A stretch of DNA of 64,000 nt from Flavobacterium nackdongense. Lineage in GTDB: Bacteria; Bacteroidota; Bacteroidia; Flavobacteriales; Flavobacteriaceae. A program made the translations under genes and the position numbers. Every line of letters starts with the position of its first letter. Positions within the stretch are counted from its first letter, which is position 1. The notes under the pieces are model-generated. The model ran no database searches. It saw only the letters and a list, made by a program, of their open reading frames with translations, and was not told the origin of the DNA. The stretch spans positions 2,232,001-2,296,000 of the forward strand of contig NZ_CP037933.1 in the NCBI RefSeq assembly GCF_004355225.1, in the 5' to 3' direction. This document shows positions 17,026 through 43,697 of the stretch, piece after piece.

Positions 17026-18510
17026 ATGAAACATCTTAACAAACTTTTACTTGCTGTAATGATGGTGTTTGCCATGAGCTCTCAAGCACAAAACAGTAAC
17101 AATCCTTGGGCTCTTTCGTTTGGGGTAAATGCAGTTGACACACGAGCTAGCGCTGGTGGAGGAAACAACTGGTTAGATTCTCACGTATCTCAAGCATTTC
17201 TTGTAGGTCAAAACTGGAACATTCTTCCTTCTGTATCTTATCTTAGTTTAGAAAGAGCAATTGGAAATAATTTCTCAGTTGGACTTAAAGGATCTATCAA
17301 CAAAATTGATAAATTTGTTGTTTTTGATCCGTCAAACCCTGATCATAATTCTGCAGGTTATGTAACTACTAACCCTGGAGATTTAATGTATTATGGTGTA
17401 GAATTAAGCGCGAAATATAGCTTTATGTCTCTAATCGGTTCTAAAACTATTGACCCTTCGTTAAGTCTTGGTGGAGGTTATACTTGGTTAGGAGATAACA
17501 GTTTCGGATCTGTGAATCCAGGAGCAGGTTTAACTTTCTGGTTTACTGAAAATGTAGGTTTGCAATTAGCAACTGTTTATAAAGTTTCTCAATTACTTGG
17601 TCAAGATCGTTCTGAAATGGGAGATATCTATGCTCCTAAAGCGCCTTCTCATTTCCAACACTCTTTAGGTATTACTTTCCAATTTGGAGGTAAAGATACT
17701 GACGGAGACGGAATCTATGACAAAGATGATGCTTGTCCAGAAGTTGCTGGTTTAAAACAATTCAACGGTTGTCCTGATACTGACGGTGACGGAATCATTG
17801 ACGGAAGCGATGCTTGTCCAACTGAATTTGGTTTAGCTGCTTTGAATGGTTGTCCTGATAAAGACGGAGACGGAATTGCTGACAAAGATGATGCTTGTCC
17901 AGATACTGCTGGTTTAGCTGCTTTCCAAGGTTGTCCTGATACTGACGGTGATGGTCTTGCTGACAAAGATGACAAATGTCCTACTGTAGCTGGTCCAAAA
18001 TCGAATGGTGGTTGTCCAGTATTGGATGCTGATAAAGATGGTGTGCCAGATTTAGAAGATAATTGTCCTATCGTAGCTGGTCCTGCTAGCAACAAAGGTT
18101 GTCCAGAAGTAACTCAAGAAGTTGTCGAGCAACTTAGAACTCAAGCTAGAGCTATCAACTTCAATTTAGGAAAAGCAACTTTCAATACAGCTGATGTAAA
18201 ATCTAATGAGAGTTTAGATGCTATTAAAAATATTCTTAAAAACTATCCTACAGCTAAATGGGAAGTTCAAGGACATACAGATAGTACAGGTGGTGCAAAA
18301 TTAAACCAAAAACTTTCTGAAGACAGATCTAAAGCAGTTGTTGATTTAATGGTTCAAAACGGAATTAAACCTGAGAACATCACTTCTAAAGGTTATGGTC
18401 CAAGCAAACCAGTTGCTAGCAACAAAACTAAAGAAGGTAGAGCTAAAAACAGAAGAACTGAAGTTATCTACGTTGGTGGTGTTGATGGAATGAAAGTTAA
18501 TCTTAAATAA
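17026..18510 (+). CDS. OmpA-family outer-membrane protein with thrombospondin type 3 repeats
   Basis: A 494-residue protein. Signal peptide ends near SSQAQ. An N-terminal beta-barrel-like domain (about 25-220) is followed by five calcium-binding TSP3-type repeats of the form DTDGDGIxDxxDACP...GCP (about 223-365). The OmpA C-terminal peptidoglycan-binding domain (about 370-485) has WEVQGHTDSTGG and NRRTEVIYV. Codon use is biased toward frequent codons, as expected for an abundant protein. Anchors outer membrane to peptidoglycan. It has a strong consensus promoter and a clear terminator. Confidence 0.93.
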   Translation: MKHLNKLLLAVMMVFAMSSQAQNSNNPWALSFGVNAVDTRASAGGGNNWLDSHVSQAFLVGQNWNILPSVSYLSLERAIGNNFSVGLKGSINKIDKFVVFDPSNPDHNSAGYVTTNPGDLMYYGVELSAKYSFMSLIGSKTIDPSLSLGGGYTWLGDNSFGSVNPGAGLTFWFTENVGLQLATVYKVSQLLGQDRSEMGDIYAPKAPSHFQHSLGITFQFGGKDTDGDGIYDKDDACPEVAGLKQFNGCPDTDGDGIIDGSDACPTEFGLAALNGCPDKDGDGIADKDDACPDTAGLAAFQGCPDTDGDGLADKDDKCPTVAGPKSNGGCPVLDADKDGVPDLEDNCPIVAGPASNKGCPEVTQEVVEQLRTQARAINFNLGKATFNTADVKSNESLDAIKNILKNYPTAKWEVQGHTDSTGGAKLNQKLSEDRSKAVVDLMVQNGIKPENITSKGYGPSKPVASNKTKEGRAKNRRTEVIYVGGVDGMKVNLK

Positions 18511-30036: not shown

Positions 30037-30804
30037 ATGAAAGTAGCCTTAATCCAATCCAACTTAACTTGGGAAAACCCAAAAGCCAACCGAAATCTTT
30101 TCGAAGAAAAAATCAACACCATTGCTGAAAATGTCGATTTGATTGTACTTCCCGAAATGTTCACCACCGGATTTACAATGAATCCTGAGCTTGTTTTTGA
30201 TACAATGGAAGGCGAAACTGTTTCGTGGATGCAATCGTTGGCGAAAGCCAAGAATAGCGCGATTACGGGGAGTTTGATTATGAAGGAAACTAATAATTTC
30301 TACAACAGATTGGTTTTTGTTTTTCCGTCAGGAGAGATCAAATTTTATGACAAAAGACACCTGTTTACCTTAGCGGGCGAAAACCAAGTCTATACTTCAG
30401 GCAAGCAAAAATTAATTGTGGAATATCTCGGCTGGAAAATTTGTCCGCTGGTTTGCTATGATTTGCGTTTTCCTGTTTTTGCACGAAATGTCGAACATTA
30501 TGATCTATTGCTATATGTTGCCAATTGGCCAAAACCTCGCGTGAATGCCTGGGATATTTTACTCAAAGCACGCTCGGTCGAAAATATGTGTTATACTATC
30601 GGGGTAAACAGAACGGGTTTTGACGATAACAATTATGAATACAATGGACATTCACAAGTTGTTGATTTTCTTGGAAATGACGTTCTCAAACCACAAGAAA
30701 CCGATGGAATTTTCATCGTAACATTAAATAAAGAAAAATTGCAAGAAACCAGAAACAAACTAGACTTCCTTAACGACAAAGATTCCTTTGAACTAAAAAC
30801 TTGA
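30037..30804 (+). CDS. Nitrilase-superfamily amidohydrolase (omega-amidase-like)
   Basis: A 255-residue carbon-nitrogen hydrolase. Catalytic triad: Glu in VLPEMFTTGF, Lys in YDKRHLF and Cys in PLVCYDLRFP. The MNPE after TTGF and the F-x-Y-D-K-R-H-L-F stretch are close to the YafV/NIT2 omega-amidase group, which hydrolyses alpha-ketoglutaramate. Cytosolic. Its last 12 bases overlap the 3' end of the convergent Ig-like lipoprotein gene. Confidence 0.88.
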   Translation: MKVALIQSNLTWENPKANRNLFEEKINTIAENVDLIVLPEMFTTGFTMNPELVFDTMEGETVSWMQSLAKAKNSAITGSLIMKETNNFYNRLVFVFPSGEIKFYDKRHLFTLAGENQVYTSGKQKLIVEYLGWKICPLVCYDLRFPVFARNVEHYDLLLYVANWPKPRVNAWDILLKARSVENMCYTIGVNRTGFDDNNYEYNGHSQVVDFLGNDVLKPQETDGIFIVTLNKEKLQETRNKLDFLNDKDSFELKT

Positions 30805-32463
30805 TCTAGATTTTTTTTTCAGGTCTTTCTTAGGCTTCACCTTTTTTATAGGTTCCGGACTATACGGAATACTTAAATCAAAAACTTGTTCTACATCCCA
30901 ATTAGCGCGAACATCTATTTCCTTCGAAAAATAAATTATTTCTTCGGCCTGCCGTTTCGCTAGGAAATTTCCTGAATCCCATTCCTTATTTTTATTGTCG
31001 TCATAAATTGCTCTAAGAGAAAAAAGCGATGGGTCAATCAAGCTAAATTCGACTTTTGTATTGCTTTCGCTATATTCTGTTGCTAAAACTTCGCCGGTCT
31101 TGTTGGTCAACTGAATCAATACAGGAAAACGTTTTACGTTTTGCAAACTCACTTTCAGATTGCCATATTCTTCGACACTTTTAGTGTTCAAACTAAAGGA
31201 ATTCTTTTTGTTCGATTGATCCAAATAATCCGTCACTGCGCCGGGCATCATTATAATCGTATAGTTTTCTGAAAACTCTTTTTTAAAATCAAATTGTAGC
31301 TGTTGATTAAATTCATCGTATTTGGTCGTGAAAGCCACCGCCGTTGAATCTTTAGTAATGAGTTTCATTTTGGAATTGTCAATTTTTACCAACGGGGTTG
31401 CACTTTCTAAAATAAATTTACTCCTAAAACTAACATTACTATTTTGCGTAGTGGTAATATTCAAGCTGTCTTTTTTCTGTTCTTTGATTTTAAAGCTAAA
31501 ATTCTTAGCGTATTTTTCTTTTGAAATTGCCAATGACAGAGAATCGGTTTTCGCAGGCTTAATCCAAATTTGTAGCGAATCCTTTTTGGGAAACTGGGTC
31601 ACAATTGTTGACAAATCGGCGTTTTTATTTTTTAACGCTAATTTAATTCCATTTGCCTTTCCTTCATAAGGAACAATGATTCTGTTTCCTGATATTTGAA
31701 AAGGTTTTTGGGCTTTAAAAGGAGGCACTTCTTTGAATAATTTCAGTTCAAAAACAGTATCATTCGGAATGGTAATAAACTGCTTCTTAAATCCTATTTT
31801 GTCTTTGTTAGGATTAAATTTATTATTAGAACCGTAATCCTTCATCGCTACAAGCAGGTATTTTCCGACTTTTAAATTCTCTAATTTAAAAATCTTCAAA
31901 CTGTCTAGCGTGTTGGTAATATATCTTGGCGATTCTTTGTAAACCACCGAATCATTAAATTTATCATTAACCTCATACAGCATCACCGAAACGAAGGATT
32001 CCACATCTTTTGTATAGGCATCTTTTACCGTTCCAGTAATAGTTAACGAATCGATAATACTGCCAGTAGAAAACACATATTTAAACTGATTATAAGGATT
32101 TCCTTCGTTGTTGTCTTCTATACTTTGCCCAAAATTGAAGCTATACGTAGTGTTGGGCTGCAAAGTGTCGTTTATTTTCACCGTTATAGTTTTACTTGCA
32201 GTCGTGGGTAAAATTAGTGGCTCGTTCTTCATCGGCGGCGAAATAATTAACTGCTTCTTTATATCTTTCAACTTGACAAATTCGTCAAAAGTCAATTTGA
32301 TTTCGCTTCCTTTGAAGTTGGTGCTGAAGTTTTTAGGAAAACTGGCCTTCAAAATCGGAGCTAGTGTATCTTTCGAACCGCCCGTAATGCTACCTCTTTT
32401 AGCACAACTTGCCATAATTAATACGAATAGAAATAGAAAATATTTAGAGTTGTTTTTCAACAT
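30793..32463 (-). CDS. Ig-like-domain lipoprotein
   Basis: A 556-residue exported protein. Signal peptide with lipobox ending MASC at residue 21, followed by GSITGGSKDTLAPIL. An N-terminal Ig-like (Big_5-type) domain (ASFPKNFSTNFKG, ITFDEFV-like segment) recurs as the NTTYSFNFGQSIEDNNEGN strand motif. The rest is beta-rich, with a basic C-terminal tail (KKVKPKKDLKKK). It belongs to a conserved flavobacterial family of uncharacterised outer-membrane or periplasmic lipoproteins. No partner is evident nearby. Confidence 0.78.
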   Translation of the reverse strand: MLKNNSKYFLFLFVLIMASCAKRGSITGGSKDTLAPILKASFPKNFSTNFKGSEIKLTFDEFVKLKDIKKQLIISPPMKNEPLILPTTASKTITVKINDTLQPNTTYSFNFGQSIEDNNEGNPYNQFKYVFSTGSIIDSLTITGTVKDAYTKDVESFVSVMLYEVNDKFNDSVVYKESPRYITNTLDSLKIFKLENLKVGKYLLVAMKDYGSNNKFNPNKDKIGFKKQFITIPNDTVFELKLFKEVPPFKAQKPFQISGNRIIVPYEGKANGIKLALKNKNADLSTIVTQFPKKDSLQIWIKPAKTDSLSLAISKEKYAKNFSFKIKEQKKDSLNITTTQNSNVSFRSKFILESATPLVKIDNSKMKLITKDSTAVAFTTKYDEFNQQLQFDFKKEFSENYTIIMMPGAVTDYLDQSNKKNSFSLNTKSVEEYGNLKVSLQNVKRFPVLIQLTNKTGEVLATEYSESNTKVEFSLIDPSLFSLRAIYDDNKNKEWDSGNFLAKRQAEEIIYFSKEIDVRANWDVEQVFDLSIPYSPEPIKKVKPKKDLKKKSRSSF

Positions 32464-32545
32464 AATGCAAGAATATTTAGAAACTACAAAATAACAATTA
32501 TATTCGCTGTAATTGAAATTTTTATGAAATTATTAGCCGCTTTAA

Positions 32546-32574
32546 CCCTGTCAGGGTTCAAAACCCTGACAGGG
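32546..32574. repeat. Perfect REP-like hairpin (CCCTGTCAGGG type)
   Basis: Two exact 13-bp complementary arms, CCCTGTCAGGGTT and AACCCTGACAGGG, around loop CAA; each arm is itself nearly palindromic. No T-run follows, so it is more like a REP element than a terminator. It shares the GGTTTTGAACC-type core with 34925-34957. Confidence 0.75.
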
Positions 32575-32591
32575 CTGAGATTTATAGAAAC

Positions 32592-33275
32592 TTAGCTATG
32601 CGCCATTGCCATACAAACAATACTAATTCGTGCACCGGGAATTTTCAATAAGGCGTGCGAACAAGCTTCCAAAGTCGAACCAGTCGTGAGCACATCGTCA
32701 ATCAAGAGGAAATGTTTATTGTGGTCTTTTTCGGTGAAAACAACATCGAATATAGTGTCTATACCTTCACTTCTATTCAATAAATTTTTCTTGGATTGGG
32801 TTTTCGAATATACATTTCGAACCAATATATTGGAATCAAATGGAATATCCAAAGCAACGGAAAGCGTTTTTCCAAAATTGGTAACCTGATTATAACCCCG
32901 TTCTCTCAACTTTCGTTTGTGCAAAGGCACAGGAATAATTTCATCTACCGATTGCATGATTTCCAAATTTTTCAAATCTTCAGCATACCATTCACCCAAA
33001 ACAGTACCAATCTGCTCTTGACCTTTATATTTCAGGTTATGAATTAATTCTTGAACGATTCCTTTTTGATGAAAATACAATAATGCAGAGGTGTGTTCAA
33101 CTGGAATTCTACCATAAAATTTTTTGAAAGCCTCATTTTCAGGATTCAAATGATGATTCGTCAACGGAATATTATGTCGGCAAACCGTGCAAATCACTTT
33201 TTCATTCGACACCAAAAACGAATGACATCCAGCACAAACTGGCGGAAAAAAGAGATTGATTAGGCTTTGCAACAT
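32592..33275 (-). CDS. ComF-family phosphoribosyltransferase-like protein
   Basis: A 227-residue protein. The N-terminal zinc ribbon has CAGCH and CTVCRH pairs; the C-terminal PRTase fold has the PRPP-binding motif FLLIDDVLTTGSTLEAC. ComF/GntX proteins act in DNA uptake or in stress responses; several bacteria need ComF for transformation. A complete stand-alone gene, divergent from glyS. Confidence 0.9.
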   Translation of the reverse strand: MLQSLINLFFPPVCAGCHSFLVSNEKVICTVCRHNIPLTNHHLNPENEAFKKFYGRIPVEHTSALLYFHQKGIVQELIHNLKYKGQEQIGTVLGEWYAEDLKNLEIMQSVDEIIPVPLHKRKLRERGYNQVTNFGKTLSVALDIPFDSNILVRNVYSKTQSKKNLLNRSEGIDTIFDVVFTEKDHNKHFLLIDDVLTTGSTLEACSHALLKIPGARISIVCMAMAHS

Positions 33276-33357
33276 AAATTAGAGATATTATTTATAAAAA
33301 TAGCAAAATCGATGCTTCAAACTTCAAAAATGTTTCTTTTTTTAAGTTCACTTTTTA

Positions 33358-33365
33358 TATTTTTG
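33358..33365 (+). promoter_or_regulatory. -7 promoter box of glyS
   Basis: TATTTTTG ends only seven bases before the glyS ATG, so the transcript would have almost no leader. The -33 element is weak. Confidence 0.5.
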
Positions 33366-33372
33366 CACCACT

Positions 33373-34914
33373 ATGGCAAAACAAGAAGATTTATTTAAGA
33401 ATGTGATTTCGCACGCAAAAGAATACGGATTTATTTTTCCGTCAAGCGAAATTTACGATGGTTTAAGTGCAGTCTATGATTATGCACAAAACGGAGTAGA
33501 ATTAAAAAAGAACATACGCGAATATTGGTGGAAAGCGATGGTTCAAATGAACGATAACATCGTTGGCCTTGACGCGGCAATTTTGATGCATCCCACGACT
33601 TGGAAAGCTTCAGGTCACGTCGATGCTTTCAACGATCCTTTAATCGATAATAAAGATTCCAAAAGAAGATACAGAGCCGATGTTTTGATTGAAGATTATG
33701 CCGAAAAGCTAAATCTAAAAGCTAAAAAAGAAATCGAAAAAGCGAAAGTTCGTTTTGGAGACGCTTTCAATGAACAAGAATTCATCACCACCAATGCAAG
33801 AGTGGTTGAATATTTAGCCAAAGAAAGAGAAATCCTCGAAAGAATGGGCCGTTCTTTAGGAGCTGGTGATTTGGAAGATGTAAAAGCCTTAATCGAAGAA
33901 TTAGAAATAGCTTGTCCAGAATCCGGTTCTAGAAATTGGACCGAAGTGCGTCAATTTAACTTGATGTTTGGTACCAAACTAGGCGCTTCTGCCGATACCG
34001 CAATGGATTTGTACTTGCGTCCGGAAACAGCTCAAGGAATTTTTGTAAATTTCTTAAACGTTCAAAAATCAGGAAGAATGAAAGTTCCTTTTGGTATTGC
34101 ACAAACTGGAAAAGCGTTTAGAAATGAAATCGTAGCTAGACAGTTCATTTTCCGTATGCGTGAATTCGAACAAATGGAAATGCAATTTTTTGTGCAACCT
34201 GGAAAAGAAATGCAATGGTACGAACATTGGAAAAACGCACGTTTGAATTGGCATTTGTCTCTAGGTTTAGGAAAAGAAAAATACCGTTTTCACGATCACG
34301 AAAAACTGGCGCATTACGCGAATGCAGCTGCTGATATCGAATTCGATTTCCCTTTTGGTTTCAAAGAATTAGAAGGAATTCACTCTCGTACCGATTTCGA
34401 TTTGAAAGCGCACGAACAATATTCAGGCAGAAAATTACAATATTTCGATGCTGAATTGAATCAAAATTATGTTCCTTATGTGGTGGAAACATCTGTAGGA
34501 CTAGATAGAATGTTCTTGGCGATTTTTGCCACTTCCTTAAAAGAAGAAACTTTAGAGGATGGTTCAACAAGAACGGTTCTGAAATTACCAGCCGTTTTAG
34601 CACCAACAAAAGCAGCTATTTTACCATTAGTTAAAAAAGATGGATTGCCTGAAATCGCTCATAAAATCATCGATGATTTACGTTGGGATTTCAATGTAGC
34701 GTATGACGAAAAAGATGCCGTAGGACGACGTTACAGAAGACAAGATGCTTTGGGAACTCCTTTCTGCATTACTGTCGATCATCAAACTATCGAAGATCAA
34801 ACGGTAACAATTCGTCATAGGGATTCAATGAAACAAGATCGCGTGGCGATTACCGACTTGAAATCAATCATCGAAAATGAAGTTTCGATGAAAAATTGGT
34901 TAATGAAGATGTAG
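33373..34914 (+). CDS. glyS: Glycine--tRNA ligase (single-chain, class II)
   Basis: A 513-residue class IIa synthetase charging tRNA-Gly. Seen: YDYAQNGVELKKNI near the N-terminus, the motif 2 region FRNEIVARQFIFRMREFEQMEM (cut here at FRMREFEQMEMQFF), motif 3 VETSVGLDRMFLAIF, and a C-terminal anticodon-binding domain (about 420-510). It is the archaeal/eukaryote-like alpha2 form used in Bacteroidetes, not the GlyQ/GlyS heterotetramer. Essential. Its -7 box lies almost at the ATG. Confidence 0.95.
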   Translation: MAKQEDLFKNVISHAKEYGFIFPSSEIYDGLSAVYDYAQNGVELKKNIREYWWKAMVQMNDNIVGLDAAILMHPTTWKASGHVDAFNDPLIDNKDSKRRYRADVLIEDYAEKLNLKAKKEIEKAKVRFGDAFNEQEFITTNARVVEYLAKEREILERMGRSLGAGDLEDVKALIEELEIACPESGSRNWTEVRQFNLMFGTKLGASADTAMDLYLRPETAQGIFVNFLNVQKSGRMKVPFGIAQTGKAFRNEIVARQFIFRMREFEQMEMQFFVQPGKEMQWYEHWKNARLNWHLSLGLGKEKYRFHDHEKLAHYANAAADIEFDFPFGFKELEGIHSRTDFDLKAHEQYSGRKLQYFDAELNQNYVPYVVETSVGLDRMFLAIFATSLKEETLEDGSTRTVLKLPAVLAPTKAAILPLVKKDGLPEIAHKIIDDLRWDFNVAYDEKDAVGRRYRRQDALGTPFCITVDHQTIEDQTVTIRHRDSMKQDRVAITDLKSIIENEVSMKNWLMKM

Positions 34915-34924
34915 TTTAAAAAAT

Positions 34925-34957
34925 AGACCTCAAAGGTTTTTGAAACCTTTGAGGTCT
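34925..34957. repeat. Perfect REP-like hairpin (CCTCAAAGG type)
   Basis: Arms AGACCTCAAAGGTTT and AAACCTTTGAGGTCT, exact over 15 bp, loop TTG. No T-run follows. It lies 10 bp after the glyS stop and could still act as an mRNA 3' end structure. Confidence 0.75.
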
Positions 34958-35004
34958 TATGTATACTTAATTCGAAAGATGCTTCACCTAAAATGGAGCA
35001 TTTT

Positions 35005-35535
35005 TTAGTTAAATCTATAACCTAATGTAATTCCCCCTCGACCAACAATTTCGTGATCAGTATCGCTACTATTGAATAAATTTCGACCCACACCAGCATT
35101 TATTTCAAACAAGAATCCACTTTTGGTGATCCACTTAGAACCTAAACCAAATCCTAGGGCAAAATCAGTTCTGGAAACTTCTTTATAATAATTATAAGAA
35201 CTATTTTCGCCCGTGTAAAAAGAATCCTCATATGAATTTAAAGTTCCAAAACCTTCCACAAAAAATCCAGCTGCCGGTTTTTGGCCAAAGTAGAAGCGAT
35301 AGTAAGGTGTCAAAGCAAATTTAGTGTCAAAATCTTCTGTAATTGCTAAAAAAACAGAAGCACCAAAACTAGTTTCCTCATTAATAATTCGTTCATAAGT
35401 GGCCTCAAAGGCACCCGCGACTAAGAATAAGGCATTGCCTTTGATTTCATTTTTAGGAAAATCAGCTTTTGGCTTTTCTTGGCTATAACCAATTGTAAAA
35501 AAAGACAAACTAAGTACTACTAATAATTTTTTCAT
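35005..35535 (-). CDS. Small outer-membrane beta-barrel-like protein
   Basis: A 176-residue protein with a Sec signal peptide (cut after FTIGYSQ) and alternating amphipathic strands such as ALTPYYRFYFG and AAGFFVEGFGTL, ending in aromatic YRFN, as outer-membrane barrels do. It resembles DUF3575-type proteins. Function unknown. Convergent with glyS, separated by the REP-like hairpin. Confidence 0.75.
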   Translation of the reverse strand: MKKLLVVLSLSFFTIGYSQEKPKADFPKNEIKGNALFLVAGAFEATYERIINEETSFGASVFLAITEDFDTKFALTPYYRFYFGQKPAAGFFVEGFGTLNSYEDSFYTGENSSYNYYKEVSRTDFALGFGLGSKWITKSGFLFEINAGVGRNLFNSSDTDHEIVGRGGITLGYRFN

Positions 35536-35911
35536 ATTTTTTGATTGATTTTAATTTGTTTTCAAATTTAAATGAAATTGTTCAGATTTTACATATAATA
35601 TTATGATTTCTACATTAAAATATGAATTTTAACATATTAATAAATAGCAACTACATCAACGGAGTTTGTGTACTTTATCGGATTTATTTGCACTTCATCC
35701 AATTCTGTTAACATTTGTTAATAAAATATTAACAACTTAAATAGAAAAAGAGGTAAATGCTTATTTTTAGCTTGTTAAATAGGGTTTTTTTAAGAAAAAA
35801 TATGAGATTCTATTGAACTAGTTTCCCCAAAACTACCAGAAATACTTAATAATTTGAAGTGTATTCTTCGAGAATCTAATGTTATGCCTAACGAATTAGG
35901 ACAAAACATTG
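35536..35911. other. Intergenic region upstream of the degenerate LytTR gene
   Basis: 376 bp, strongly AT-rich, with no supported gene. It contains clustered GTTAAC/TTAATA-like words (near 35705-35740) and the run AGGGTTTTTTT near 35782. No clear TAnnTTTG promoter for the downstream gene could be fixed. Confidence 0.5.
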
Positions 35912-36901
35912 ATGAATTTTCCGTACATTATTATTGACGACAATCAAGAAAGTGTTTTGAAAACTAAAGCGATTGCTGATGGTTTTTCGGAGCTTGTCTT
36001 TGTAGCTTCGGCCAATAACTATGCCGATGGTCTCCATCTAATTCTAGAACACAATCCCAAATTAATTTTCCTCGAAATTGATCCAGCCGATACATCGACT
36101 AACCTGTCATTGGCGCTCATCAACGAGTTGTATCGGTATCTTAAGGTTGTTCCGAAAGTAATTATTACCACTTCTAAAAAAGAACTAGCTTTTGACGCTA
36201 TACAGTATGAAGTAGCGGATTATTTGATTAAACCGGTGCAAAGAATCGATTTTATAAAATTTATTTTAAAAATAAAAAAAACAGTTGACGAAGAGCCTTC
36301 TTCTTTCGTAGTTGAAAAACAAATATTCAACGAGCCAACTGTTCCAAAACCAGAACTACCTCTAAATAATTTTGAAGAAGACAAACAGGAGGAGACAGCT
36401 CCCATTCCTGAAGAAACAACTGCTCTTGAAACATCTACTTTCGAAGAACCAGCCGATCTTGAAACAACTAATAGTCCTGACGAAGAGTCATCGTCTGAAG
36501 AAGATACCATTCTACATATTCCAAAACAGAGGCTCGTTCCCATCTCAGAACAACCACTTATTCTATGTATCAAATCCTACGGCGACTATCGGTACATCGA
36601 CGCAAGAGACATTTGCTATTTCCAAGCCGATAATAACTCAACGGATATTCACTTAAATACGGGTGAAATGGTTACCGCTTTCAAAACATTGAAACATTTT
36701 GAAGGCATTTTATCGGCTCCATTTGCAAGAATTCACAACAGTTATATTGTAAATAGCAGTTACATTTCTAGAATTCATACCGGAAATGCCGTCTGCTATA
36801 TCAAAAACACTACTACAAAAATCCCGTTTTCTAAATCTTACAAGGAAAACATCGATGCCATTATCTCGGATTTTGCCAATGGCAATTATTTGGAAATATA
36901 A
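35912..36901 (+). CDS. LytTR regulator with degenerate receiver and long acidic linker
   Basis: About 329 residues from ATG 35912 (a TTG one codon earlier is less likely). The receiver domain (1-125) keeps D9-D10, T87 and K107 (YLIKPV), but the phosphoacceptor aspartate is E55 in LIFLEIDP. A linker of about 80 residues (130-212) is rich in Glu, Thr, Ser and Pro. The C-terminal LytTR DNA-binding domain has ARIHNSYIVNSSYI. Glu at this site often mimics the phosphorylated state, so the protein may be constitutively active or ligand-controlled. No kinase partner adjoins upstream; the repeat-peptide gene follows. Confidence 0.88.
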   Translation: MNFPYIIIDDNQESVLKTKAIADGFSELVFVASANNYADGLHLILEHNPKLIFLEIDPADTSTNLSLALINELYRYLKVVPKVIITTSKKELAFDAIQYEVADYLIKPVQRIDFIKFILKIKKTVDEEPSSFVVEKQIFNEPTVPKPELPLNNFEEDKQEETAPIPEETTALETSTFEEPADLETTNSPDEESSSEEDTILHIPKQRLVPISEQPLILCIKSYGDYRYIDARDICYFQADNNSTDIHLNTGEMVTAFKTLKHFEGILSAPFARIHNSYIVNSSYISRIHTGNAVCYIKNTTTKIPFSKSYKENIDAIISDFANGNYLEI

Positions 36902-36946
36902 GAAATATTCATCCACCCAAATTTGAGGGTCATTCACTATCAAACG

Positions 36947-36983
36947 AACGCATTCTACCATAAACGCCCGTTTTCAGTGCGTT
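36947..36983. promoter_or_regulatory. Nested inverted repeat upstream of the repeat-peptide gene
   Basis: Outer arms AACGCA (36947-36952) and TGCGTT (36978-36983) enclose a perfect palindrome AAACGCCCGTTT (36962-36973). A second short hairpin, CCAGTG-GTAGT-CATTGG, lies at 37018-37034. It may be a regulator site or leader structure; binding is not shown. Confidence 0.35.
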
Positions 36984-37081
36984 AATACAAATATGCTATG
37001 TAGTTTTACACCGTGATCCAGTGGTAGTCATTGGACACACAACTAAGTAAAACCTTATTAACAATATAAAAACCCCACATT

Positions 37082-37336
37082 ATGAAAAAATCAATTTTAA
37101 CAAGCGGACTACTAATTTTGGTAATGATATTAACGTCTTTCACAACACCTGAAACAAAAACTGACGCTGTTGGTTCAGGAATGGCTGGAGGCAATGTAAG
37201 ACTGGATGCTGTTGGTTCAGGAATGGCTGGAGGCAATGTAAGACTAGATGCTGTTGGTTCAGGAATGGCTGGAGGCAATGTAAGACTAGATGCTGTTGGT
37301 TCAGGAATGGCTGGAGGAAATGTAAGATTAGATTAA
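37082..37336 (+). CDS. Exported peptide precursor with four identical 14-residue repeats
   Basis: An 84-residue protein. Residues 1-about 22 form a Sec-type signal (MKKSILTSGLLILVMILTSF), then a short TTPETKT spacer, then four tandem copies of DAVGSGMAGGNVRL (residues 28-83) and a final Asp. The four 42-bp DNA copies (37163-37204, 37205-37246, 37247-37288, 37289-37330) differ at four positions in total, all synonymous; copies 2 and 3 are identical. No known family is recognised. Possible roles: a multicopy signalling peptide processed from a precursor, a small surface or matrix protein, or an inhibitor. It lies between a LytTR regulator and a sensor kinase/regulator pair and has its own terminator. 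Confidence 0.75.
   Translation: MKKSILTSGLLILVMILTSFTTPETKTDAVGSGMAGGNVRLDAVGSGMAGGNVRLDAVGSGMAGGNVRLDAVGSGMAGGNVRLD
37163..37330 (+). repeat. Four tandem 42-bp repeats inside the peptide gene
   Basis: In-frame head-to-tail units of 42 bp encoding identical 14-mers. High DNA identity implies recent expansion or gene conversion; only synonymous changes imply selection on the peptide. Confidence 0.95.
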
Positions 37337-37390
37337 TTTTTTAACTAGAACATTAAATTAACGTTCTTTTAATTTCTACTATATATTTAA

Positions 37391-37424
37391 AGGTTGTCAA
37401 AATTATTGATAACCTTTTTTTATG
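37391..37424 (+). terminator. Terminator of the repeat-peptide gene
   Basis: AGGTTGTCA ... TGATAACCT stem (one wobble) followed by seven T. It separates the peptide transcript from the kinase gene. Confidence 0.8.
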
Positions 37425-37442
37425 TTTATATGTTTTATTTAG

Positions 37443-37450
37443 TATTTTTG
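37443..37450 (+). promoter_or_regulatory. -7 promoter box of the sensor kinase gene
   Basis: TATTTTTG, 20 bp upstream of the TTG start; no clear -33 element. Confidence 0.45.
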
Positions 37451-37470
37451 ACAATACTCAAAAATACTAA

Positions 37471-39504
37471 TTGAAAAAAAACTATTACATAATAATAATT
37501 TCTCTACTGACAGTTCTTGGATGTACCAAGAAAAGTGCAGTTAATTCACTTTCAAATTCCCCAGAGGATAGTCTTTCTAGCTACCTCACCAAAGCAAATG
37601 ATTTTGGCGCTACTACAAAGAAGAGACAGGAATACATACAAAAAGCCTTCAATATAGTTATCGAGCAGGATAACGATTCTTTACAAAGAACCAATTTGTT
37701 TAGAATAGCCAATCGGTATTATAACTTAAACGATTGGAATAAATACCGTGAAATTGCCAACATTGTTTTGCAAAAGGCAAAAATTAGTAGGGACAGCCTT
37801 AGTATGGCCAAAGCTTATAGTTACTTAGGTGATTATTATGGTTCCCAAGGAGTTTCCGACTCAGCCTTTGTAAATTATTTTAAATCAGAGAAACAGTATC
37901 TTAATCTCAAAGAAAATTACAACGCTTCCAGAACTCGACTAAATATAGCTTTACTTCAATTTAATGAAAGTGACCTACTAGGTAGTGAAATCTCTGTTTT
38001 TAAAGCTTTAAAAGCTATCAAAGGAGAAACAGCAAATGATATTGTTTATGAATCCAATAACCTTCTAGGATTAATATACAATGAACTTGGAGAATTTGCC
38101 AAAGCGATTGAATACCATAACAAAGCGTTACAAGGACTAGATAAAGCCCCTACCCCCATAGAGTTCCAATCTAGAGCCACATCCTTGAATAATTTAGGTT
38201 TAGTTTATCAGAATCTCAACAAAGACAAGCAAGCCATACCCTATTTTGAAGAAGGTCTAAAACAAAAACAAGACATTTTACTATACAAACCACCATTATA
38301 TGCTATGCTATTAGATAATTTAGGCTATTCTCGCTTTAAGTTAAAAGAAAAAAAAGGACTACCTGGTCTTTTTTACGAATCTTTACGACTAAGAGATAGC
38401 TTGAAGTTAACTACAGGTATTATTGTTAATCAAATACGTTTATCTGAGTACTTTGCTGCCCAAGGGGATAAGGTAAAAGCGTCGAAATATTCAAACGAGG
38501 CAATGATAACTGCAAAAAACTCAAAAAACAAAAGAAATTATTTATTGCCACTCAAGCAATTGGCAATCATAGAACCAACAAAAGCAACAGAATACAACAA
38601 AGAATACATTCATATTAACGATAGTTTACAAAAAGCAGACCGAAAAATTGCAGATAAATTTTCACGTATTGAATATGAAACCGATGAAATCAAACAAGAA
38701 AACACGGATTTGACGGTTCAAAACCGGAACTTGGTTTATATTTTTGGCGGCATCTTAATATTAGGCTTGTTTTTGTATATCATCAAAGCACAAAAGGCCA
38801 AAAACAGAGAATTATTATACAAGCAAGAGCAACAAAAGGCTAACGAGGAAATCTATAATTTGATGATTTCGCAACAAAATGATGTTGAAACTATTCGGGT
38901 GATTGAGAAAAAACGTGTGGCGCAAGAATTGCACGATGGGGTTTTGGGCAGAATGTTTGGGGTTCGAATGAACTTAGACAGTTTGAATAAATTCAATGAT
39001 GAGCTTGCGTCAGAGCAGAGAGACAGCTACTTAACGGAATTGAAAAATATCGAACAAGATATCCGCGAAATTTCACATGATTTGAGTAGGGAAAAATCGG
39101 ATTTAATTAATAACTTCGTGGCCATAGTAGAAAAACTACTCGAAGAACAAAAAAAGACGTTCAAGGCAAAATTGGTTTCCTCAATTGATTCCACTATCAA
39201 ATGGGATTTGATGAGTAACGCGATCAAAATCAATTTATACCGTGTGGTTCAGGAATCCATTCAGAACATCAATAAGTATGCTAACGCTCGCAACATAAAA
39301 GTTGAATTTAAAAAAGGAAATAACGAATTGTTTTTGCATATTAGCGATGACGGTGTTGGATTTAATGTAAAAAAGAAGAAAAAGGGAATCGGGCTGCAAA
39401 ACATGCTTTCTAGAATAAATGAATGCGAAGGTACTTTTGAAATTCAATCAAAAAAAGGAGAGGGAACAAAAATTATGGTCGCCGTACCCATTAAAAAATC
39501 ATAA
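37471..39504 (+). CDS. TPR-domain sensor histidine kinase (HisKA_3)
   Basis: A 677-residue protein. An N-terminal signal with lipobox-like LTVLGC at residue 18 is followed by a periplasmic TPR domain (about 60-400; repeats such as ESNNLLGLIYNELGEFAKA and SLNNLGLVYQNLNKDKQA). One transmembrane helix follows (about 421-441). The kinase core is HisKA_3 type with H488 in VAQELHDGVLGRMFGVR and a HATPase domain (NINKYANARNI, DDGVGFNVK, GIGLQNMLSRI). The start is TTG, with TAA immediately upstream. TPR sensors of this build respond to peptides or protein partners. It is 11 bp from its NarL-type regulator. Confidence 0.9.
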   Translation: MKKNYYIIIISLLTVLGCTKKSAVNSLSNSPEDSLSSYLTKANDFGATTKKRQEYIQKAFNIVIEQDNDSLQRTNLFRIANRYYNLNDWNKYREIANIVLQKAKISRDSLSMAKAYSYLGDYYGSQGVSDSAFVNYFKSEKQYLNLKENYNASRTRLNIALLQFNESDLLGSEISVFKALKAIKGETANDIVYESNNLLGLIYNELGEFAKAIEYHNKALQGLDKAPTPIEFQSRATSLNNLGLVYQNLNKDKQAIPYFEEGLKQKQDILLYKPPLYAMLLDNLGYSRFKLKEKKGLPGLFYESLRLRDSLKLTTGIIVNQIRLSEYFAAQGDKVKASKYSNEAMITAKNSKNKRNYLLPLKQLAIIEPTKATEYNKEYIHINDSLQKADRKIADKFSRIEYETDEIKQENTDLTVQNRNLVYIFGGILILGLFLYIIKAQKAKNRELLYKQEQQKANEEIYNLMISQQNDVETIRVIEKKRVAQELHDGVLGRMFGVRMNLDSLNKFNDELASEQRDSYLTELKNIEQDIREISHDLSREKSDLINNFVAIVEKLLEEQKKTFKAKLVSSIDSTIKWDLMSNAIKINLYRVVQESIQNINKYANARNIKVEFKKGNNELFLHISDDGVGFNVKKKKKGIGLQNMLSRINECEGTFEIQSKKGEGTKIMVAVPIKKS

Positions 39505-39515
39505 ATCACAATACA

Positions 39516-40214
39516 ATGACATTGGATTCAACTACTGAAATAGAAACAATCAAAAACAACATATTGATTGTAGATGATCACCCATTTATAATTCAGGGGT
39601 ACAAAAATGCGATTACCCGATACAATCCTAAGGAATATGAGTTTTTCATTACCGAAGCAAAAGATTGCGAATCAGGGTATAATGTCATAACAAACCCAGA
39701 AACAAGGGCTTTTGACATCGCTTTTTTAGATATTAGCATGCCTTCTTATGATGAAAAAGGTATTTTTTCAGGCGAAGATTTAGCTAAATTATTGAATGAA
39801 TACATGCCCAATTGCAAAATTATTTTGCTCACAATGTACACCGAATTGCTCAAAATCAGAACGATAATAGAGGCAATAAATCCACTTGGATTAGTTATCA
39901 AAAATGATTTGACTTTCGACGAACTTCTTTTTGGCTTTAACAAGGTGATCAATAATGAAATTTATTACAGCCAATCCATCCAAAAAATGCTCGATCAGTC
40001 CGAATTTGAAACAATTGAAATTGATCTTTTTGATAAACAAATTCTTTTTCATCTGTCTAAAGGAACAAAAACCAAAGATATTCCGCAATACATCCCCATT
40101 TCGTTGAGCGCCATCGAAAAAAGAAAAATGAATTTGAAAAAATTACTAAATACAAAAGACGAAACCGATATTGGCTTAGTGCGAGAAGCTAAAGACAGAG
40201 GTATATTGTTTTAG
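39516..40214 (+). CDS. NarL/FixJ-like response regulator
   Basis: A 232-residue regulator. Receiver (about 14-140) with D20-D21-H22 and phosphoacceptor D72 in IAFLDISMP; the loop after it (SYDEKGIFSGED) is longer than usual. The C-terminal region (about 175-215) is LuxR-like in position, but its sequence (LSKGTKTKDIPQYIPISLSAIEKRK) departs from the typical LuxR helix. Likely activated by the upstream TPR kinase, 11 bp away. Targets unknown; the adjacent repeat-peptide gene is a candidate. Confidence 0.87.
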   Translation: MTLDSTTEIETIKNNILIVDDHPFIIQGYKNAITRYNPKEYEFFITEAKDCESGYNVITNPETRAFDIAFLDISMPSYDEKGIFSGEDLAKLLNEYMPNCKIILLTMYTELLKIRTIIEAINPLGLVIKNDLTFDELLFGFNKVINNEIYYSQSIQKMLDQSEFETIEIDLFDKQILFHLSKGTKTKDIPQYIPISLSAIEKRKMNLKKLLNTKDETDIGLVREAKDRGILF

Positions 40215-40231
40215 TATTTATAAAATTAACC

Positions 40232-40262
40232 AAAAAACGGCATTTTAGAAGCCGTTTTTTTT
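40232..40262. terminator. Bidirectional terminator between the NarL-type regulator and thiL
   Basis: AAAACGGC ... GCCGTTTT stem flanked by A- and T-runs; it touches the thiL stop codon at 40261-40263. Confidence 0.8.
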
Positions 40263-41310
40263 ATTCTTCACTCAAAGCATTCCAGCCACGAGCTTTCAAA
40301 GGAATTCGGGTATTGGCGCGAGTTACCAAATGGATTCCTTCGCTTTCTTGAGTCATATGACCAATAATGGTAAAGTTTGGATTTCCTTTTATTTTTTCGA
40401 AATCTTCCATTTTTATGGTAAAGAGCAATTCATAATCTTCGCCACCGTTGATGGCTACGGTTGTGGCATCAAGATTGAATTCTTCACAAACATTCATAAA
40501 TTGAGGGTCAAGTGGTAATTTGTCTTCATATAAATTGCAACCTACATTCGATTGTTTACACAAATGCATAATTTCCGACGACAATCCATCCGAAATATCA
40601 ATCATCGCGCTTGGTTTTATTTCTAAGGCGTGTAATAATGTCCGAATGTCTTTTCGAGCCTCAGGCTTCAGTTGGCGCTCTATTAAATAAGCATACGCAT
40701 CCAGATCAGGTTGCGAATTAGGGTTTACCTGAAAAACTTGTTTCTCGCGCTCCAATACTTGCAATCCCATATAGGCTGCGCCGATATCCCCTGTGACAAC
40801 GAGTAAATCGGTTTGTCCAGCTCCGTTTCTATAGACAAGTTCATTCTCGTCTGCTTCGCCAATAACAGTGACGCTGATGATCATTCCCTTTTGAGAAGAA
40901 GTGGTGTCACCACCTATAACATCTACCTTATATTCATTGGCTGCGAGTGTAATTCCTTCGAACAATTCTTCTAGAGCCTCAAGTGGAAACCGGTTGGAAA
41001 CAGCTATCGTAACTAGAATTTGTGTCGCTTTGGCATTCATTGCACAAATGTCGGACACATTGACTACAACGGCTTTATATCCCAAATGCTTTAAAGGCAT
41101 ATAACTCAAATCAAAATGGACACCTTCGACTAAAATATCAGTAGAAACTACTACTTTTTTGTCCTTGAAATCCAATATAGCTGCATCATCGCCAATCCCT
41201 TTGAATGTCGAAGATTGGTTAATTTGAAAGTTTTTAGTCAAATGGTCAATTAATCCAAATTCTCCAAGTTGAGCGATACTTGTGCGTTGCGGTGATTTAT
41301 CTTCTATCAT
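40261..41310 (-). CDS. thiL: Thiamine-monophosphate kinase
   Basis: A 349-residue AIRS/ThiL-fold kinase converting thiamine phosphate to thiamine diphosphate. GIGDDAAILDF (nucleotide/metal-binding), STDILVEGVHFDL, VVNVSDICAMNAKA, GGDTTSSQKGM and SAMIDISDGLSSEI are the family motifs. Length is typical. A TACCTTTG -7 box lies on the minus strand at 41341-41334. Transcribed alone, just downstream of the ParE-type module. Confidence 0.94.
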   Translation of the reverse strand: MIEDKSPQRTSIAQLGEFGLIDHLTKNFQINQSSTFKGIGDDAAILDFKDKKVVVSTDILVEGVHFDLSYMPLKHLGYKAVVVNVSDICAMNAKATQILVTIAVSNRFPLEALEELFEGITLAANEYKVDVIGGDTTSSQKGMIISVTVIGEADENELVYRNGAGQTDLLVVTGDIGAAYMGLQVLEREKQVFQVNPNSQPDLDAYAYLIERQLKPEARKDIRTLLHALEIKPSAMIDISDGLSSEIMHLCKQSNVGCNLYEDKLPLDPQFMNVCEEFNLDATTVAINGGEDYELLFTIKMEDFEKIKGNPNFTIIGHMTQESEGIHLVTRANTRIPLKARGWNALSEE

Positions 41311-41405
41311 TGTAGTTTTATTATTGAGTTTTGCAAAGGTACAAATAAGAGAAGGTAAATTTTTAAATTATAAACTGATAATTTACGCCGCTAAAGTTTG
41401 CATTA

Positions 41406-41708
41406 TTAGCGTCTATTATTCCAAATTTCTGGATTTCTTGAAGTGTGAAAAACGGCAAAAACAGTAACAAATTTTGTGTTTTCATTGATTAAAAAATGAA
41501 TCAAGAATGGAAATTTTTCAATTTTTCTACACCGAATTTGGTTGTATTTTATACTAAAGAGATATGGATTTTTTTTCAAAGCATTAATTTGCTTTTTCAC
41601 TTGATTCTTGTAACGCAACCCCAATCCTTTCGACTGCATTTCATACCATTCGAATGTTTCTTCGATGTCATTTAAAGCATCCGTATCTATTTTAAAATGA
41701 AATCTCAA
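41406..41708 (-). CDS. RelE/ParE-family toxin
   Basis: A 100-residue protein with the ParE/RelE pattern: ALNDIEETFEWYEMQSKGLGLRY near the N-terminus (helical hairpin) and IRCRKIEKFPFLIHFLIN followed by VFAVFHTSRNPEIW. It starts at TTG, three bases after the antitoxin stop; no ATG is available nearby. Likely targets DNA gyrase or ribosome-bound mRNA; which one cannot be told. Confidence 0.85.
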   Translation of the reverse strand: MRFHFKIDTDALNDIEETFEWYEMQSKGLGLRYKNQVKKQINALKKNPYLFSIKYNQIRCRKIEKFPFLIHFLINENTKFVTVFAVFHTSRNPEIWNNRR

Positions 41709-41711
41709 GTT

Positions 41712-41933
41712 TTAAAGCCCTTTTGATACCTCGTCCCAATCTAAAAGTCTTTCAGGATTGGTTTTTGCTTTTGCCATCCGGTCTAAAACAATTCGTTGAT
41801 GTTCAACGGGTATTTCCATAGTATCATTCCAAATGGCATCATTCACTTTCAATCGATCTTTAGGCGAAAGTTGTTTCACAGCTTCAATCAATTGATTGAC
41901 ATTCAAATCGATGTTCAGTTTAATTGTTTCCAT
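41712..41933 (-). CDS. Antitoxin of the ParE module (addiction-module component)
   Basis: 73 residues from the ATG for METIKLN (an upstream ATG at 41996 adds a hydrophobic stretch not expected in this family). Contains LIEAVKQLSPKDRLKVNDAIW and a C-terminal RLLDWDEVSKGL, the usual build of small antitoxins paired with ParE. Toxin start is 3 bp downstream, indicating co-translation. Confidence 0.8.
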   Translation of the reverse strand: METIKLNIDLNVNQLIEAVKQLSPKDRLKVNDAIWNDTMEIPVEHQRIVLDRMAKAKTNPERLLDWDEVSKGL

Positions 41934-42084
41934 AAAAACAAAGTTAGTGAAAACATAATACCACAAACAAAATAAACTAATAATTTTCATCACCATTTTA
42001 TAATCTTACTACCTAATTCTCTTTAATCCAAAAACTTAATACATACACAAACACTTTTCGATCTATCAAACCCATTTTTTGGTC

Positions 42085-43083
42085 TTAGCTTTTTTCTAAA
42101 ATATGTAGAAATTCAGTGGTGCTGTTGGCAATATGATTACGATTTTCGGTTTTGTCGGCTTTAAATCTTTGGTAATCGGTTGTAGCCAAATCATATTGGC
42201 CATATTTCGACATTATGTTTCTAATTTCCTCTGCAGACATGAGGCCTTCGTTATTGTAACTTAGAAAAGTATAGCGAAAAGAAGCGTTTTTTATTAAATC
42301 TTCAAATGATTTTTTCACTTGAGACTTGCTGCAATAATTCGACCGGTTGTATTCGCGCAAACCAGTTTTCCCTCTTGGAATAAAGGAATCATATTTTGCT
42401 ATAGTATTCAAAATATGATAATTAGCCCCGTACTGACGCGCATTGTAAGGTGGGTCTAAATACAGAATATCGCCTTCTATTTTTTGGATTAAAGCATTGC
42501 TATCTTCATTATAAACTTCGTGTTTGTTGGCATTAATTTCGAACAATGCAGGCTCTAAAATCAATTCTTTTTGTGCTGATTTTTTAATGTGTTTCAAGTA
42601 GGCGCCATAAACCGAAGCAGTATTAGCGACTTTGTCGGCACTTTCTAACAAAGAAGCTAAAAGAAAATAATATACATTCGAATGGATTTGATTTGAAGTT
42701 TTCCAATATTCAATTTTTTGACGAATGGCATCAATTTTTTTTCCGTTATTTTCAGAATAGTACAATCTTTTTGATGTTCCGTTTTCAGAATATTCATTAA
42801 AAACAAAACCTTCAACACCCTGTAATGCATTCAATTCTTCAATCAAAGCAGAGTAATCGAATGATTCGTGGTTTTCGATATAATTTTTGTTCAGCACAAA
42901 ACTGTAGTATTCTAGGTCATTACTGATTACTTTCTTGACGTCTTTCTTGAAGCTTCGACCTACAATACCGGTTCCCGCGAACAAATCGCAAAACGTTTTT
43001 TGTGATAAATCACCGCCAACAGTTGAATTTACTGTGGTTGAAATGAATGAAGAAAGTTTTTGTTTTGAGCCTATATAATTCAT
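42085..43083 (-). CDS. D12-class adenine-specific DNA methyltransferase
   Basis: A 332-residue Dam/D12-type N6-adenine methylase. SAM-binding FxGxG in CDLFAGTGIVG at 32-42; catalytic DPPY at 210-213 followed by NARQYGANYHILNT. The N-terminal MNYIGSKQKL is also characteristic. Its ATG overlaps the stop of the upstream 204-residue gene by one base (TAATG). Together they look like a type II restriction-modification pair; the target sequence is unknown. Confidence 0.9.
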   Translation of the reverse strand: MNYIGSKQKLSSFISTTVNSTVGGDLSQKTFCDLFAGTGIVGRSFKKDVKKVISNDLEYYSFVLNKNYIENHESFDYSALIEELNALQGVEGFVFNEYSENGTSKRLYYSENNGKKIDAIRQKIEYWKTSNQIHSNVYYFLLASLLESADKVANTASVYGAYLKHIKKSAQKELILEPALFEINANKHEVYNEDSNALIQKIEGDILYLDPPYNARQYGANYHILNTIAKYDSFIPRGKTGLREYNRSNYCSKSQVKKSFEDLIKNASFRYTFLSYNNEGLMSAEEIRNIMSKYGQYDLATTDYQRFKADKTENRNHIANSTTEFLHILEKS

Positions 43084-43697
43084 TATTCATTTTCTATCCA
43101 AATGATGTCGGATATGATTTTTTTACTTTCTAATGTGATAGAAATAAGGTTATTTTCATCGAATTGAGCCATATACTCATCGATTTTATTTTTAATTAAT
43201 CCCAGTTCCGATTTTAATTTCCAATGCGCCCCGTTTTGATCATACATCACAAGGAACAATCTATTTTCAAGATGTTTTCTTCCGTCTTGGCTTTGGTTCA
43301 GATACAGCCAAGTTATTAGTTCAGATGGATTTTTTTTGGCATAATCAATCGGTTTATTGAACCCTTTTGGGAATATCGAGGTTTTATGGTCAAAGGAAAT
43401 TTTGTTGATAGAAAAATCGATTAATTTGTCATATTTATTTAGGTTAGGCGCCACCTTTTTATGCAAAGAAAACATTTTTTCAACTGCCATTGCGGACCAA
43501 AAATTATACCATCGGTTGAAGGAATAATTTTTTTCATCTTGGGTAAAATTTGACGTAACCTCAATTAACTTTTCGAAAGTATAGGTTGAATAAATGAAAT
43601 TTGTTTTGGCATCCCAATCGTCTGATTGTTTTCTACCCCAAAAATAGGGAAATTGTAATCGTTCTTTTAACTGTGATTCAAGTCTAATAAAATCCAT
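43083..43697 (-). CDS. Putative type II restriction endonuclease
   Basis: A 204-residue protein with no family recognised by name. It has a PD-(D/E)XK-like arrangement: D94 in KLIDFSIN, then D103-x-K105 in SFDHKTSIFP, with beta-strand character around both. Position directly before a D12 methylase with a one-base overlap, plus the size, points to the cognate endonuclease. Uncertain because the acidic motif is weak and D-x-K is common. Confidence 0.55.
   Translation of the reverse strand: MDFIRLESQLKERLQFPYFWGRKQSDDWDAKTNFIYSTYTFEKLIEVTSNFTQDEKNYSFNRWYNFWSAMAVEKMFSLHKKVAPNLNKYDKLIDFSINKISFDHKTSIFPKGFNKPIDYAKKNPSELITWLYLNQSQDGRKHLENRLFLVMYDQNGAHWKLKSELGLIKNKIDEYMAQFDENNLISITLESKKIISDIIWIENE

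Follow-up and report, generated by a model that had tools for sequence, protein, structure and literature searches.

A probable multicopy peptide precursor encoded beside a predicted extracytoplasmic TPR histidine kinase suggests that Flavobacteriaceae have a peptide signalling system not yet described

A small gene in a 64,000-nucleotide stretch of the Flavobacterium nackdongense genome (contig NZ_CP037933.1, positions 2,232,001 to 2,296,000 of the forward strand; the whole stretch is called the window) encodes an export signal followed by four identical 14-residue units, and it lies immediately upstream of a gene for a histidine kinase with a tetratricopeptide repeat (TPR) sensor domain. We consider it rather probable that this protein supplies, in several copies, a peptide that the adjacent extracytoplasmic TPR kinase senses as its ligand, and the ligand is probably a pheromone. 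The same pairing of precursor and sensor is found across many Flavobacteriaceae, which points to a peptide signalling system that has not been described. Comparison of sequences provides the pairing, the identity of the units under selection, an architecture of cores and spacers, a terminator-like element between the two genes and a co-divergence of peptide and TPR domain; the TPR fold of the sensor is that of a structure model. The original prediction, made from the letters of the window alone, had read the gene as a multicopy peptide precursor, and this reading is supported by a copy number that varies, a kinase pairing that is kept and a unit that stays constant within each gene.

The precursor and its parts are arranged as follows, signal peptides and lipoboxes being assigned throughout by simple rules rather than with SignalP:
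37082..37336, + strand: precursor gene, signal peptide and four 14-residue units (open reading frame (ORF) list, Tandem Repeats Finder)
37082..37147, + strand: predicted Sec-type signal peptide, approximate extent (read from the sequence; model helix 2-19)
37166..37207, + strand: unit 1, AVGSGMAGGNVRLD (ORF translation, Tandem Repeats Finder)
37208..37249, + strand: unit 2, AVGSGMAGGNVRLD (ORF translation, Tandem Repeats Finder)
37250..37291, + strand: unit 3, AVGSGMAGGNVRLD (ORF translation, Tandem Repeats Finder)
37292..37333, + strand: unit 4, AVGSGMAGGNVRLD (ORF translation, Tandem Repeats Finder)

The ORF of 84 residues starts with ATG, and its signal-peptide-like N-terminus reads MKKSILTSGLLILVMILTSFTTPETKTD. 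Both ORF translation and Tandem Repeats Finder (array 37166-37333, period 42, 4.0 copies, 97% matches, score 315) agree with the predicted signal peptide and four exact copies, and reading of the codons confirms that the copies vary at four nucleotide sites, every one synonymous (GAC/GAT, CTG/CTA/TTA at two sites, GGC/GGA), so that successive copies differ by 4 synonymous and 0 non-synonymous changes. The final unit reaches the last residue of the protein. Since the residue preceding the first unit varies in relatives (D, E, Q, N) and their last unit usually closes the protein with Asp, the natural phase of the unit is AVGSGMAGGNVRLD, which corrects the phase given earlier. The precursor had no match in Pfam and one match at chance level only in NCBIfam. 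Its predicted structure contains the signal helix 2-19 as sole element (mean predicted local distance difference test score, pLDDT, 52), which is weak evidence because repeats model poorly. An antisense open frame runs across the repeats (37006-37278, - strand, MPPAIPEPTASSLTL...) and most likely reflects only the 42-bp repeat itself.

A protein search with the precursor returned 77 relatives. Their leader is strongly conserved (MKKSILTIGLLSLVMILTSFTTPET-like), and the unit behind it, present in 1-5 copies, varies between proteins and hardly within one. Matches at E<=0.01 were present in 23 of 100 related genomes, all Flavobacterium, with the own genome counted; one of the relatives, L025, is from Flavobacterium sp. 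MAG NK2020. In the precursor loci L001-L025 the TPR kinase is adjacent in 24/25 and a LytTR gene is present in 23/25; L008 and L024 are contig ends, and in L014 the precursor lies between two kinases without a LytTR gene. Kinase relatives were gathered independently of the precursor and occur, own genome counted, in 128/160 genomes of the genus (E<=1e-80) and in 71/120 genomes representing one per genus of Flavobacteriaceae (E<=1e-60). A class-wide draw yielded the kinase in 6/198 genomes (E<=1e-40), all six of them Flavobacteriaceae, and the kinase family thus appears limited to Flavobacteriaceae at the sampled depth.

For the pairing test, kinase ORFs with at least 400 nt of upstream sequence were compared with other ORFs of at least 200 residues from the same loci, and a signal-peptide-like small ORF on the same strand ending at most 160 nt upstream was scored as precursor. 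Such an ORF precedes 110 of 136 kinases in the first set versus 9 of 155 other ORFs, four of these nine being kinase relatives themselves (L149-L152). Among the 26 kinases missed by the script, five have a precursor on inspection of the reading frames (L040, L045, one of L107, L136, and L142, recognised from its C-terminal part alone). A validation set of 83 Flavobacterium loci, composed of 23 new ones and 60 fetched regions and drawn from part of 192 matching genomes, contains a precursor in 81 by script (that of L221 is identical to one first-set precursor); the precursor of L228 was found by eye, and the L160 sequence is truncated where the kinase begins, which leaves no upstream DNA. Together, both sets bear out the expectation that the gene stays beside a kinase/regulator pair, and a relative of the downstream response regulator is found in 30/30, 56/57 and 32/34 loci of three kinase sets. 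Precursor and kinase gene are separated by the following element:
37389..37417, + strand: terminator-like hairpin of 12 pairs with T tail (sequence)
A comparable element occurs in 90 of 110 precursor-kinase gaps versus 3 of 110 after base shuffling. Three to four small precursors stand in tandem before one kinase in L136 and two in L138, ending in DPIIIPKKD or PIIIIKRD; here the multicopy state is reached through gene duplication, not internal repeats. Tandem arrays of TPR kinases are also seen (eight kinase ORFs in L106, five in L108, two in L145), in which 7/8, 5/5 and 2/2 stand without a direct precursor; these may be orphan or eavesdropping receptors, or reflect receptor diversification through duplication.

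Internal repeats at the DNA level recur in 57 of 112 first-set precursors (window gene included) and in 60 of 81 validation precursors, and the repeat in the window is therefore not a chance occurrence. With repeat segments picked on DNA identity, the copies of the first set differ by 495.7 synonymous and 134.3 non-synonymous changes, corresponding to 0.301 per synonymous site (pS) and 0.026 per non-synonymous site (pN) and a ratio pN/pS of 0.086 (bootstrap 0.062-0.114); third positions hold 509 of 630 differences, and the two shifted frames give ratios of 2.5 and 2.2. The validation set (60/81 genes) gives 0.075 (0.050-0.109), with 2.5 and 3.6 in the shifted frames. The copies have had time to diverge at silent sites, yet their residues stay equal. 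Judged from these codon comparisons, each copy seems to meet the same constraint, and this constraint seems to change from species to species.

Between species, the copy number of the unit ranges from 1 to 6, as had been anticipated, but the accompanying expectation of a conserved 14-mer failed: 150 precursor-kinase pairs contain 135 distinct C-terminal 14-mers (the peptide of L033, a related species, is AAGSGAAGGNVRLD). Constancy within a gene together with change between species is what a ligand should show if each receptor has its own matching peptide. The 193 precursors measure 48-154 residues, and 111 of 165 in Flavobacterium carry Gly-Gly within the last 16 residues. Precursors of the window type have no spacer between units, other Flavobacterium precursors have short ones such as FE, YE, YTSSD or LTYE, and in L044, L048, L051 and L056 long spacers separate cores of 14-16 residues, the cores being identical or near-identical and the spacers unrelated in sequence and length. 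Across 41 genes, 99 of 1505 core positions are unlike the last copy, versus 77 of 233 positions unlike between successive spacers (each gene's anchor was picked by eye, and the last copy set the length of the core). Some precursors stop once the conserved part of their final unit is complete, with no spacer behind it. In other genera most precursors end, by eye, in a single short acidic or Gly-rich tail, and multicopy ones are found in L069, L071, L078 and L081. Some Flavobacterium precursors (for example L093, L096, L102, L105, L207, L224, L229, L235) combine a core with another, degenerate one of different sequence at their C-terminal end (NQSxGxxKKxD-like), and two different peptides may possibly derive from one such precursor.

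The kinase is encoded directly behind the terminator-like element:
37471..39504, + strand: sensor histidine kinase, 677 residues (Pfam, structure model, hydropathy)
It comprises a lipobox-like N-terminus (C18), TPR at about 31-400, HisKA_3 and HATPase_c (Pfam, model), with one transmembrane helix at about 420-438 (hydropathy); the lipobox pattern is matched by 174 of 220 kinases. In the model, the sensor is a TPR superhelix resembling LGN, NprR and Rap, and its position between the lipobox-like N-terminus and the transmembrane helix would place it outside the cytoplasm.

Peptide divergence follows TPR sensor divergence in these alignments, also when kinase domain, regulator and flanking DNA are allowed for. 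Partial Mantel tests compared peptide and TPR domain given kinase domain and regulator; among 105 kinases of the first set, 100 come with a precursor and 90 of those also with a downstream regulator; a filter on the first residues of the precursor left 83 for use. The partial correlation between peptide and TPR domain is 0.22 (n=83, p 0.0005), within Flavobacterium 0.324 (n=67, p 0.0005), in one class 0.207 (n=28, p 0.02) and in other genera 0.364 (n=16, p 0.002). A larger set, comprising those 150 of 159 Flavobacterium pairs that have a regulator, gives 0.347 (n=150, p 0.001), with 0.214 in the window-like class (n=111, p 0.001) and 0.141 in the rest (n=39, p 0.01). The corresponding values (all, window-like, rest) are 0.08, 0.108 and 0.141 for the kinase domain and 0.083, 0.107 and 0.082 for the regulator, whereas leader and TPR domain show no such relation (-0.031). 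Restricting the comparison to 66 independent pairs gives a partial correlation of 0.655 between peptide and TPR domain. Moreover, 33 close pairs with unlike peptides show a kinase divergence per position, in 25-residue blocks, of 0.24-0.46 over residues 1-375 and of 0.01-0.11 over residues 451-675.

Precursor and kinase lie in a cluster with the order LytTR regulator, precursor, TPR histidine kinase and second response regulator, of which the remaining features are:
35909..36901, + strand: LytTR-type response regulator, 330 residues, TTG start (Pfam LytTR 2.3e-16)
36910..36967, + strand: three similar direct elements at 36910, 36931 and 36951, spaced 20-21 bp (46-region alignment)
37001..37009, + strand: TAGTTTTAC conserved box (alignment of 46 upstream regions)
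39516..40214, + strand: response regulator, receiver and C-terminal output part (Pfam Response_reg 5.3e-10)

The receiver of the LytTR regulator is slightly below the cut-off (Pfam Response_reg 1.6e-6), and a LytTR gene occurs anywhere in the fetched stretch in 28/30, 39/57 and 14/34 loci of the three kinase sets. The downstream regulator is called LuxR/NarL-type; it has no Pfam helix-turn-helix (HTH) match, and DUF5932 as well as NarL/UvrY/MctR-type NCBIfam models align under the cut-off. A block of about 170 bp upstream of the precursor is conserved in 46 aligned upstream regions. We take its three direct elements to be a candidate LytTR binding array, although offset 21, the highest in the autocorrelation among offsets 8-44, reaches just 2.1 standard deviations, and the TAGTTTTAC box is a candidate -7 element of a Bacteroidetes-type promoter. 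Searching the own genome for the two-box upstream element with at most 3 mismatches matched only the promoter of the precursor, which suggests no further target of the regulator, and the region 35000-41500 holds no Rfam element at E<=0.1. Ten proteins encoded around the precursor (30037-43697) were compared with Pfam and matched no exporter or protease family, and no RiPP (ribosomally synthesised and post-translationally modified peptide) modification enzyme or peptidase-transporter. Farther upstream glyS is seen in 16/25 precursor loci, a count limited by flank length; between it and the LytTR gene the window has an opposite-strand ORF that is DUF3575-like (35005-35535). Downstream lie a ParE-type toxin (41406-41996; Pfam ParE_toxin 1.6e-8) with a putative antitoxin upstream (Unstab_antitox just under the cut-off), and a D12-class adenine DNA methyltransferase with a 204-residue neighbour lacking a Pfam match (42085-43697), possibly a restriction-modification pair. 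Another tandem repeat of the window (17695-17972, unit 81 bp, 3.4 copies) reads DTDGDGIADKDDACP-like and is presumably thrombospondin type 3-like.

We propose that the precursor would be exported by Sec and that proteolysis at the unit boundaries, after the terminal Asp in the window protein, would yield several copies of one peptide; in other species cleavage may occur in or around the short spacers. The cognate receptor of this peptide would be the histidine kinase whose gene comes immediately downstream, and peptide binding in the TPR groove may alter kinase activity and, through it, the downstream response regulator. The upstream LytTR regulator probably controls precursor transcription, and the terminator would ensure that more ligand than receptor is made. 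That the peptides are species-specific and the sensor domains matched to them suggests a pheromone. Release of the peptide and action between cells are a likely extension of the ligand reading, and the system may further depend on cell density and have regulatory targets of its own.

Several observations weigh against this proposal. No upstream precursor is visible for 21 of 136 kinases, 14 of them within the three tandem arrays (seven in L106, five in L108, two in L145), six as extras beside a paired kinase (L107, L109, L117, L124, L127, L128) and the remaining one in L082. The lipobox pattern is present in 22 of 28 precursors of other genera versus 3 of 165 in Flavobacterium, and the former may therefore stay tethered. 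In the first, smaller window-like class it was the kinase domain with which the peptide correlated (0.255, p 0.002), not the TPR domain (0.059, n=39, p 0.23); the full larger set keeps weak correlations with kinase domain (p 0.03) and regulator (p 0.04), and outside the window class kinase domain and TPR domain have the same value (p 0.06 and 0.01). TPR divergence is also tracked by the non-coding DNA between precursor and kinase (partial correlation 0.675) and by the upstream region (0.54), so that part of the peptide correlation comes from a fast clock or from linkage; the leader DNA tracks it weakly (0.264), and with intergenic, upstream and leader DNA all as covariates the correlation of peptide and TPR domain is still 0.53 (p 0.0003). 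Finally, the top structural matches of the sensor are eukaryotic (LGN) or designed TPR proteins, and TPR superhelices bind many kinds of ligand.

Pairing, selection and co-divergence would fit equally well if the precursor acted unprocessed in the periplasm, as a multivalent repeat chain or as a report of envelope or protease state, and thus were part of an autocrine sensor and not a pheromone. The lipoprotein-like precursors of other genera, where four of the six lacking the pattern also have a Cys at the leader end, and the missing exporter and protease matches among the neighbours agree with such a role, but the unrelated spacers between the cores of L056, L051, L048 and L044 and the proteins stopping spacer-free after the conserved part of the last unit resemble processed precursors, and we regard it as unlikely. 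Short Gly-rich identical repeats after a signal peptide also occur in matrix proteins, so the gene might encode a structural, matrix or adhesive protein that lies in a regulator operon by coincidence. This is very improbable and was rejected on the near-constant pairing with one kinase family and the absence of modelled structure past the signal helix, itself weak evidence; a copy number that falls to one, the small size of the precursors and the co-divergence with the sensor domain argue in the same direction. Multi-core RiPP precursors exist, and a RiPP or bacteriocin precursor under its own two-component system would find a parallel in TPR or histidine kinase/response regulator genes described for some Bacteroidales RiPP clusters in passages of PMC10352776. 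The Sec-like signal peptide in place of a RiPP leader and recurring partners that are regulators make it highly improbable, and it was rejected as no enzyme is found among the ten neighbouring proteins, although one may lie elsewhere in the genome. Exact tandem repeats arise by DNA slippage, and the unit changes fast between species, so the copies could be individually functionless products of slippage and gene conversion. About 0.3 synonymous differences per site between copies of equal residues contradict this, because slippage or conversion would homogenise the synonymous sites too; together with the frame test this led to its rejection, and it is scarcely credible.

The multicopy layout had been called rare in bacteria, which needs qualifying: for Rap-Phr systems in Bacillota, Felipe-Ruiz et al. 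2024 (PMC11343458) mention Phr propeptides that carry as many as 8 tandem copies of the pheromone, so that the multicopy principle in itself is nothing new for pheromone precursors of bacteria. The present system resembles RRNPPA and Rap-Phr in the exported propeptide beside a TPR receptor, the TPR superhelix fold and a peptide that sits at the C-terminus or is present several times; a modelled TPR domain and an adjacent small propeptide gene with a signal peptide by simple rule are indeed found. RRNPPA peptides are re-imported by oligopeptide permease. Their receptor is cytoplasmic, the peptide acts intracellularly and the systems belong to Bacillota, not Bacteroidota, whereas the receptor in the window combines a TPR domain behind an export signal or lipobox with a transmembrane helix, HisKA_3 and HATPase_c. 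Its 677 residues, lipobox-like C18 and helix 420-438 differ from the intracellular receptor of 250-500 residues outlined in parts of PMC10075063. AloR-AloP of Paenibacillus polymyxa likewise involves many pairs of TPR receptor and secreted propeptide, but AloR are intracellular HTH-TPR receptors, and the passages concerned mention no sensor kinase (PMC7425212). The arrangement of precursor and TPR kinase is not described in the passages drawn from PMC7425212, PMC10075063 and PMC10352776.

With agr/ComCDE the system shares an exported peptide, a membrane histidine kinase and a response regulator in one locus, a hypervariable peptide with matched sensor, and LytTR regulators. Activation of such systems by external peptide depends on density. 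The agr/ComCDE sensor domains are multi-spanning, and their peptides undergo cyclisation or leave through a dedicated export machine; in the window one transmembrane helix precedes the kinase core, the sensor is a predicted extracytoplasmic TPR domain, linear repeats follow a Sec-like signal, and the ten neighbours include no dedicated processing or export protein. The yeast alpha-factor precursor contains identical peptides, variable spacers and a signal sequence and is processed by Kex2/Ste13 for a G-protein-coupled receptor; it is eukaryotic and serves as analogy only. No genetically encoded peptide pheromone or peptide-TPR-kinase system in Bacteroidota was found among the matches listed for open-licence PMC full text.

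On balance we lean slightly towards a family-wide peptide-pheromone system of Flavobacteriaceae, the first in Bacteroidota as far as the literature covered, in which a TPR receptor of the Rap/NprR type is extracytoplasmic and fused to a histidine kinase, and in which dozens of private peptides from multicopy precursors distinguish Flavobacterium species. If this is true, the phylum would gain a peptide language with candidate ligand sequences from 193 precursors, the RRNPP-type TPR-peptide principle would extend to sensing outside the cytoplasm by a histidine kinase, and ligand-receptor co-evolution could be studied on a clean data set.
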